From the NCBI GenBank assembly GCA_002746605.1, contig PDPT01000039.1, positions 16,478-80,477 on the forward strand: a stretch of 64,000 bases of DNA, read 5' to 3'. The notes under the pieces are model-generated. The model searched no databases and had not been told where the DNA came from. It saw only the letters and a program-made list of their open reading frames with translations. This document shows positions 61,951-64,000 of the stretch, piece after piece. Source of the DNA: Ignavibacteriota bacterium. GTDB taxonomy: Bacteria; Bacteroidota; Ignavibacteria; Ignavibacteriales; Melioribacteraceae. The translations under genes and the position numbers were made by a program. Within the stretch, counting starts at the first letter, position 1; each line of letters starts with the position of its first letter.

Positions 61951-63076
61951 TTAATCTCTAAAAATATTTATGTATTCTTCGTATGCATATAATCGATTAC
62001 GTTGTGCGCCTGTTATTTCTTTTAGAACTTTAACTTCTTCTAATTTGTTGATTAATTGATAAGCCGATTGAGATTTTTTATTAATAATTTTACTTACTAT
62101 TTGTGCATCAATTACAGGATGATTATATAAATATTCTATTACTTTATGAGCATCTGAACTTCGGGCTCCTAATCCAGTTATTTTTTCTTCAGTTTGTTTA
62201 GATAATTGTATAATTTCATCAAAAGTATTCACTCCTTTTTTAGCAGTTTCTATAATACCCCTTAAAAAAAACTTAAACCATTGTGAAATATCATTATGTG
62301 TACGTACACGCATTAAATTATCATAGTATAATATTCTGTGTCTTTCAAAAAAATCAGATAAATAAAGTATAGGACGTTTTAATATTTCTTTGTTAACTAA
62401 ATAAAGTGTAATTAATAAACGTCCAACTCTTCCATTACCATCAAGAAAAGGATGAATTGTTTCAAATTGATAATGAATTAAAGCTATTTTTAATAAATCC
62501 GGCATTAAATTCTGTTCATCATTCGCTAATTTTTCAATAGCTAAAATTAGATTATCTATTGTTGTATAAATAGGGGATATAAAAGTTGCATTGTTTATTG
62601 AAGTTCCTCCTATCCAATTTTGACTTCTTCTAAATTCGCCTGGTAATTTGTGTTTGCCTCTTACATCTTGTAATAATAATTGAATGTACTTGCTTAATTA
62701 AACGTGCTGAAAAAGGCAGGTCTTTTAAAAGATTAACAGCATGATTCATTGCTTGAATATAATTTTGTACTTCTGCCCAATCTTTATATTTTTCTTTTAA
62801 TATATCTTCTTCTTTGAGAAATGCTTCTTCTATATTTGTCTGTGTACCTTCAATTTTTGAAGATTCGGTAGCTTCTTTAGCAATATGCATTTGTATAAAT
62901 AAATCAATATTTACATATTCAGAATACATATCTAATCGTCCAATATTTCTATCAGCCAAACTTAAAAGTTGTAACACTTTCATATCATCTATTAACCAGT
63001 TTCTGTTAATAGGTTCAGGTTGAAAACTTGTGTAGAATTTTTGATTTTCGTAATTACCTGATTTAAAATTTTTCAT
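61951..63076 (-). pseudogene. Fic-family AMP transferase, frameshifted
   Basis: A Fic gene of the long class (expected about 370 residues) split by a one-base change in the TAATAATAAT run at 62671-62680. The N-terminal part (63076-62630) has the inhibitory helix SSKIEGT and ends LPFSARLIKQVHSI before the frame fails. The next frame resumes LLQDVRGKHKLPGEFRRSQN at once. It leads to the catalytic motif HPFLDGNGRVGR and a C-terminal winged-helix-like part ending at 61951; the ATG at 62505 is internal. Removing one base restores one protein. Fic enzymes AMPylate target proteins. It may be a true pseudogene or a sequence error. Confidence 0.85.
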
Positions 63077-63107
63077 ATTTAAATAAATTGTTATTGTTAA
63101 TAATTAA

Positions 63108-63146
63108 AAAAAATCATAATAAATATAACTCTTATTATGATTTTTT
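63108..63146. repeat. Perfect 15-base inverted repeat
   Basis: AAAAAATCATAATAA (63108-63122) and TTATTATGATTTTTT (63132-63146) with a 9-base loop. A T-run on either end gives it terminator form in both directions. It lies between the divergent starts of the Fic gene and the small gene at 63342, where no gene ends, so it may instead be an operator or a boundary. Confidence 0.6.
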
Positions 63147-63341
63147 ACCAAAAGTCACAATAACGATAAGTTTTAACGGAATTTTTACAGTAAATAATAT
63201 GTTGCGAGTTTTATATTGGTCTCTGTATATATTTCAGTAGCCGTAAAAATAACCTAAGTTACGCTCTTTAAAGTGAAAAGCTTCTTTTCCGTTGTGATTT
63301 GCTTTGAATTTATTATTTGACAAAATTTAAAACAGCATTGA

Positions 63342-63647
63342 ATGAGTAATGTAAAAACTTATAAGCTTGCCGGCAAAGAATTTACTGCGAAAAAAAGATA
63401 CAGTCTAAAAGACTGGGGGAAAATTATTGAACAGTTAGAGGGTTTCGATCCGGAAAATCCTATTGCCGGAACTGCTGTTTTGCTTAAAGGTAATACTGTT
63501 AACAATATTCTTGATGCAATTTTTGAAGAAGATTTTAATGAGGAATTATACGAAGATGATTTTACGAAGGCGATGAAAGTAATCAATGATTTTTTTACAA
63601 GAAAAAAAAGTTTGATGAACGCTTCGGCAAGCTCTTCGAAGGATTAA
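63342..63647 (+). CDS. Small protein, possible phage tail-assembly-chaperone-like (short product)
   Basis: A 101-residue acidic, helix-rich cytoplasmic protein with no named match (MSNVKTYKLAGKEFTAKKRY ... LLKGNTVNNILDAIFEEDF). The end of the frame is RKKKSLMNASASSSKD. About 13 codons before its stop lies an eight-A run, where a second frame with good coding character begins. Size, helical nature and the overlapped second frame resemble lambda G/GT or similar tail-assembly chaperones. This is inference from layout; no neighbouring phage gene is visible before the window ends. Confidence 0.6.
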   Translation: MSNVKTYKLAGKEFTAKKRYSLKDWGKIIEQLEGFDPENPIAGTAVLLKGNTVNNILDAIFEEDFNEELYEDDFTKAMKVINDFFTRKKSLMNASASSSKD

Positions 63648-63895
63648 ATAGAGGGTATAATTTTTACACTCAAAAGTTTGAACAGTTACAAGATAAAAAA
63701 TACAACTATTATGAGCCGGAAGCAGTTAATATAGATTTGATTCTATACAGACTTGCAGACAGTGATTTAAGTAAAGTTAGAATAATTGAACAAGAAGAGA
63801 TAAATAAATGTTATGAGTGGTTTTATCTTTTAAAAGTAAAAGAGTTAAATAAGCTTATTAACGATGTTGGGGAAATGGAAAGGTTGAAGGGCTAA
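63590..63895 (+). CDS. -1 frame extension (GT-like) of the small protein at 63342
   Basis: This frame opens after a stop at 63587-63589 and reads to a TAA at 63893-63895 with no usable start codon of its own. From the slip point it encodes about 95 residues (FDERFGKLFEGLNRGYNFY ... IIEQEEINKCYEWFYLLKVK ... ERLKG) of clearly protein-like composition. Continued by a -1 shift at 63602-63608 it would make a 184-residue fusion with the 63342 product. A one-base loss in the A-run by sequencing or mutation would give the same picture. Confidence 0.55.
   Translation, partial: FFYKKKKFDERFGKLFEGLNRGYNFYTQKFEQLQDKKYNYYEPEAVNIDLILYRLADSDLSKVRIIEQEEINKCYEWFYLLKVKELNKLINDVGEMERLKG
63602..63610 (+). promoter_or_regulatory. 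Candidate -1 ribosomal slippery site
   Basis: Eight A then G (63602-63610). In the frame of the upstream ORF this reads A-AAA-AAA-G, which meets the X-XXY-YYZ rule for tandem slippage. The zero-frame stop is about 13 codons downstream and the -1 frame is open beyond it. No downstream pseudoknot was modelled. Confidence 0.5.
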
Positions 63896-64000
63896 GAGTA
63901 ATATTTACGCTGAATTTTAGTAGCATAATAAATGACTAAGGCGGAAAACGGAAACGTAAAAAAATGAACTGCATCACCAATTACTGAATGGAGAAGAGTA

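Follow-up and report, generated by a model that had tools for sequence, protein, structure and literature searches.

A probable tail-assembly chaperone pair with a candidate -1 slip site at the end of an Ignavibacteriota contig

Two overlapping reading frames at the very end of a bacterial contig, the second of which lacks a usual start codon, raise the question of what they encode and where a ribosome would pass from one to the other. The DNA concerned is a stretch of 64,000 nucleotides from an Ignavibacteriota bacterium (assembly GCA_002746605.1, contig PDPT01000039.1, positions 16,478 to 80,477 of the forward strand; G000:C39:16478-80477), here called the window, and the gene lies at 63342..63895. 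A preliminary description, made from the letters of the window, proposed that it encodes a pair of phage tail-assembly chaperones of the G/GT kind, placed the slip on a run of eight A, and supposed that a prophage begins here. We consider it very probable that the gene does encode such a pair, G and GT, and that the long form is made by a minority -1 slip at the heptamer T TTT TTT (63590-63596).

Two reading frames and their relatives

The G frame (63342-63647, plus strand) has 101 codons and would give a short product of 101 residues, the candidate chaperone G. The -1 frame, or T frame (63590..63895, plus strand), is open for 101 codons from 63590 to 63892, between a stop immediately 5' of 63590 and its own stop at 63893-63895. 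It contains no ATG, and its sole listed internal start, a TTG at 63737, would yield only 52 residues; the frame is predicted to supply the C-terminal part of a GT fusion whose length, by coordinate count, is 184 residues whether the slip occurs at the T run or at the A run. The earlier account of a 101-codon open reading frame (ORF) overlapping a start-less -1 ORF around the eight A at 63602-63609 is borne out by the ORF list and the letters. Because a stretch open for 101 codons or more occurred in none of 20000 Markov samples of the segment, nor at any of 1625 positions when four long genes of the window were read in their -1 frame, the -1 stretch is not a chance expectation. The product of G had been called helical, which holds in part: the structure model has helices, preceded by a beta hairpin.

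Relatives of G were found in genomes of Ignavibacteria and in uncultivated viral contigs. A first genome search detected G in five of 58 genomes, the window's own included, and GTDB contigs hold it at at least four loci; among 391 genomes of the class, ten carry it at E <= 0.001, again with the own genome among them and with several matches weak. A first scan of IMG/VR returned four G loci, and a profile scan of the same collection twelve, of which four were the same. A large protein database contributes 14 G proteins, including the window's own, which is listed with two contigs; the closest other one, P0002, is 76% identical. Neither P0002, nor the T part, nor a 33-base slip-site pattern matched anything in the viral contigs scanned, and phage records gave no match to either part. 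Profiles of G and T were built and run against the six-frame ORFs of the fetched loci, and the resulting 34 G hits represent 21 distinct loci, the window being one of them. Twelve hits that repeated a place already counted (L015, L022, L023, L026, L027 and L033-L039) were left out of the tally, as was L040, a weak G match that lacks the Asp-Phe-Phe motif; the counts include both L011 and L012, which are 99.5% alike over 400 bases.

These relatives keep the arrangement in which a first ORF overlaps another that lies in the -1 frame and lacks the usual start. The T profile matches 19 of the 20 loci besides the window, and the -1 frame, counted from the T run, extends for 91-108 codons in 18 of all 21 (one of the 18, L031, runs off its contig). 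Elsewhere it leaves the contig after 53 codons (L020), breaks after 30 codons with the T match resuming in another frame (L017, IGN3), or spans 24 codons only and has no T match (L021). An alignment of the T part from eight loci has ten invariant columns. On 13 chosen pairs, rather than all pairs, dN/dS was 0.07-0.36 for G, from 11 pairs with the other two saturated, and 0.07-0.29 for the part of T downstream of the overlap, from eight pairs with the other five saturated; these values, all under 0.4, indicate purifying selection on both frames where it is measurable, the codon changes being mostly silent. A comparison of homologues, suggested by the preliminary description, thus finds both frames maintained. 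The contig of L020 (2329-2649 and 4947-5250), from a metagenome-assembled genome labelled Bacteroidetes, shows a second T-profile match; by eye, the end of a G-like frame precedes this second match and a tape-measure-like start follows it. The same contig also holds the G with a T part cut short where the contig stops.

A homologue of the tape-measure protein of L011 or L021 lies downstream in 16 of the 20 related loci; where no match was obtained, the sequence ends soon after G (L019, L020, L031) or the ORF after G is tape-measure-like by eye only (L009). The L011 tape measure belongs to Pfam TMP_3 (2.2e-29) and is also called by PHROGs, as are those of L029 and L021. L011 carries a terminase as well, and a homologue of its 315-residue protein lies upstream in 15 of the 20. 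Since Pfam and PHROGs searches gave no named family for the latter, it is its position that suggests a tail-tube protein. In the window, no gene resembling the 315-residue (candidate major tail) protein stands upstream of G, and downstream only 105 bases remain between the T stop and the contig end. Together with the conserved -1 frame and the selection on both frames, the tape-measure neighbours of the homologues support the chaperone assignment made earlier.

The site of the slip

Near the end of G the window has two correctly phased heptamers of the form X XXY YYZ, both on the plus strand. One is T TTT TTT over the Asp-Phe-Phe codons (63590..63596); the other, A AAA AAA (63602-63608), belongs to the A8 run at 63602..63609, and the T-site lies 12 bases upstream of it. 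The preliminary description overlooked the T heptamer and chose the A run. Conservation among homologues, which it had proposed to examine, does not favour that choice: 20 of the 21 loci have T TTT TTT or T TTT TTC, a conserved slippery heptamer close to the 3' end of G as is typical of such chaperones, whereas the place of the A run reads A AAA AAA in nine, A AAA AAT in one and no heptamer in 11. Ten of these 11 keep the T-site. The exception, L021, has TTC TTC at that place, no T part, and a tape-measure gene directly after G, so that this single case lacks the slip site along with the T part. This viral contig (1343-4175), with a G lacking both T part and T TTT TTY, is a natural case without frameshift; in place of tail genes, the DNA upstream of its G holds what looks by eye like a helicase gene.

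Codon use agrees with this. Elsewhere than at the site, GAT accounts for 102 of 128 Asp codons and TTT for 41 of 49 Phe codons; at the site, Asp is GAT in all 21 loci and the first Phe is TTT in 20, counts that are not independent because the loci are related. The place of the A run consists mostly of Lys codons read in both frames, which would mostly explain the run; it could at most add to slipping. On the G tree, computed without L012, A8 requires three changes at best fit, although one gain is possible and the placement of the window is unsure. From these sequence comparisons, the slip most likely occurs on T TTT TTT and not on the A run. No stimulatory RNA structure was found by folding 18 loci (L012, L017 and L021 left out): downstream energies scatter, with a mean z of -0.8 and a range of -4.7 to +2.0, and the consensus fold pairs only the T run with the A run, a pairing that includes the slip site itself and that one of 100 column shuffles equalled in energy.

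Some observations weigh against a chaperone pair slipping at the T-site. L018 and L030-L032, four of the ten loci that keep the T-site without a heptamer at the A-run place, carry a further heptamer (A AAA AAT) that lies 27 bases 3' of the GAT codon, and in L018 and L028 T TTT TTA overlaps the T-site. Moreover, the search of both frames for tail-assembly chaperone profiles, which had been put forward as a check, left both G and T without a match in Pfam, PHROG and NCBIfam; this is not decisive alone, because such genes share little sequence between phages (PMC5009743). Comparison of the G profile with the sequences of solved chains returned eight rows (best E 0.22), none credible, and that of the T model with viral folds a best E of 1.2.

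Other ways of producing the two frames have to be weighed with these facts in view. The same chaperone pair might slip mainly on the A run, as first proposed, and the window and eight other loci do present there a textbook heptamer in the right phase; nevertheless, the run is less conserved than the T-site, nine loci without A AAA AAA keep a homologous -1 frame of at least 91 codons, and its history on the G tree is at best fit one of repeated change. We have rejected it as the main site and regard it as improbable. A scheme in which T7 and, twelve bases further on, A8 are both working slip sites would let the two together set the G:GT ratio, the T-site being constant and the A run acting as a booster in some lineages only; we hold it doubtful, although, if true, it would generate fusions of equal length that differ in two junction residues. 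Mixed products could also come from slippage of RNA polymerase, and not of the ribosome, on either run, for which homopolymers of seven and eight are at hand. Polymerase slippage usually needs longer runs, however, and L008 and L009 keep the -1 frame with only T6 near the site, which leaves this a very slim chance. An error of base calling or assembly that splits one continuous 184-codon gene would be in keeping with the rough contig end and with a Fic-family gene 265 bases upstream that is also split over two frames. Yet assemblies made independently, among them that of the single-contig genome G046, show the same layout, and G and T share one frame in none of the 21 tabulated loci, so that the single-frame homologues for which the preliminary description had allowed did not appear. 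Because the two-frame arrangement recurs in independent assemblies, a single-frame gene with a sequencing error was rejected, and its probability is negligible.

The flank and the origin of the phage piece

The chaperone pair that we favour lies at the end of contig C39, which stops at window position 64000, so nothing can be read beyond. No tape-measure start was seen in the 105 bases between the T stop and the contig end; an ORF of 11 codons occupies 63932-63967, with an A7 run just ahead of its TGA stop. An Rfam scan of the window gave no match, and a tRNA scan found none. On the left, a solitary repeat of the CRISPR (clustered regularly interspaced short palindromic repeats) type, 47 bases long (63291..63337, plus strand), lies directly upstream of the G start and marks the junction with a flank that does not look like phage: the repeat and non-coding DNA by the Fic-family gene take the place of tail genes. 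The latter gene (61951-63076, minus strand) has Fic_N in one ORF and the Fic core in the other. Between it and the repeat, 81 bases (63087-63167) match their own reverse complement at 72% and are terminator-like by eye.

The repeat, which we take to be of type II-C from its length and sequence, matches at 93-94% four repeats spaced by 75-77 bases in the same-genus genome G001 (C110), and at 91% a copy on contig C67 of its own genome (G000), next to a partial cas9 match that covers model positions 2-79 of 1070 and scores 74 bits, under the family's 100-bit cut-off. No such repeat was found in the 20 related loci at E <= 0.01. On C67 (L002, about 1150-1640) the cas9 N-terminal match runs, by eye, straight into a CRISPR repeat and the leader-like side of the array, an arrangement that by eye suggests a second odd join or else that cas genes have really been deleted. 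For the repeat in the window there are two readings: DNA of an array at a join made by the assembly, or a repeat unit that stands alone, like those of RNA anti-CRISPRs.

That a prophage begins here, as had been supposed, was not confirmed. The tape measure, the 315-residue protein and the terminase of a related phage contig have no match in G000 or in the same-genus G001; among the six genomes tested, the own and five others, the tape measure matches four (G006, G021, G046 and G359) and the other two proteins three each (G006, G046 and G359), and an earlier search of the own genome, made without a positive control, had likewise given no match. Because G follows a solitary repeat and not the usual tail genes, the join is possibly an assembly chimera or a remnant; the phage piece may be joined only in the assembly, may be a remnant, or may carry a solitary repeat unit. 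There is close to an even chance that it was joined to the chromosome only in the assembly, via a CRISPR spacer matching the phage gene, the 47-bp repeat being array DNA and the next ~30 bases a spacer. G indeed starts directly after the repeat, where most relatives have tail genes, the array of G001 has a near-identical repeat with 29-30-base spacers, the three phage genes are without a match in this genome and matched in others, and the repeat on C67 also sits at an odd join by eye, beside the partial cas9 match. However, no second repeat is present on the left, as an array would have, the left flank is by eye unlike the leader side of the sister array, and current assemblers for the most part work with words that exceed a spacer in length. 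A serious possibility, though one that falls short of even, is that a genuine prophage, or what remains of one, lies here and is truncated where the contig stops: counterparts of G, the tape measure, the 315-residue protein and the terminase lie near each other in the single-contig genomes G046 and G359, but here the upstream tail genes are missing and the three other phage genes have no match in an 88%-complete assembly.

Comparison with known systems

The gene looks like a new member of the well-known G/GT kind, one that the Pfam, PHROG and NCBIfam libraries searched do not name. It would represent a tail-chaperone family of phages of Ignavibacteria and their relatives, and because these libraries lack it, its short G and start-less T are likely to escape annotation or to be listed as hypothetical proteins with no relation to each other. 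The case also illustrates how a comparison of relatives can single out the slip site: of the two candidates, the conspicuous A run is the less conserved. Judged by titles and the beginnings of abstracts, the papers found on Ignavibacter prophage tails give no account of this gene. The junction resembles the solitary CRISPR repeat units and RNA anti-CRISPRs outlined in PMC10651486 in having a lone repeat next to a phage gene, outside an array; it differs in that the repeat is not found in the related loci and that the junction is doubtful. To the HK97 tail assembly chaperone (PDB 2ob9), identity is 12% over aligned residues, with a Z too low for a claim of shared fold.

The closest parallel is with phage lambda, whose slip heptamer is G GGA AAG; the one favoured here is T TTT TTY, and neither G nor T matches a described chaperone family in the libraries searched. 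Levin (1993) and Xu, Hendrix and Duda (2004) reportedly described its tail assembly chaperones gpG and gpGT and their conserved -1 frameshift. According to PMC5009743, many copies of lambda G bind the tape measure, while the rarer GT, at a G:GT ratio of 30:1, also binds the tail-tube protein via T; the frameshift is kept in a wide range of long-tailed phages, even though their sequences have little similarity. By analogy, the window gene may work in the lambda manner. Most ribosomes would stop at 63645 and release the 101-residue G, whereas in a minority the two Phe-tRNAs would re-pair one base back on the U run and reading would continue to 63892, yielding the 184-residue GT. Many G and few GT would then coat the tape measure, and the T part would recruit the tail-tube protein. 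As in gpG and gpGT, a short G gains a C-terminal T part through a -1 slip predicted near the end of G, and the pair is encoded, here in the relatives, upstream of the tape-measure gene.
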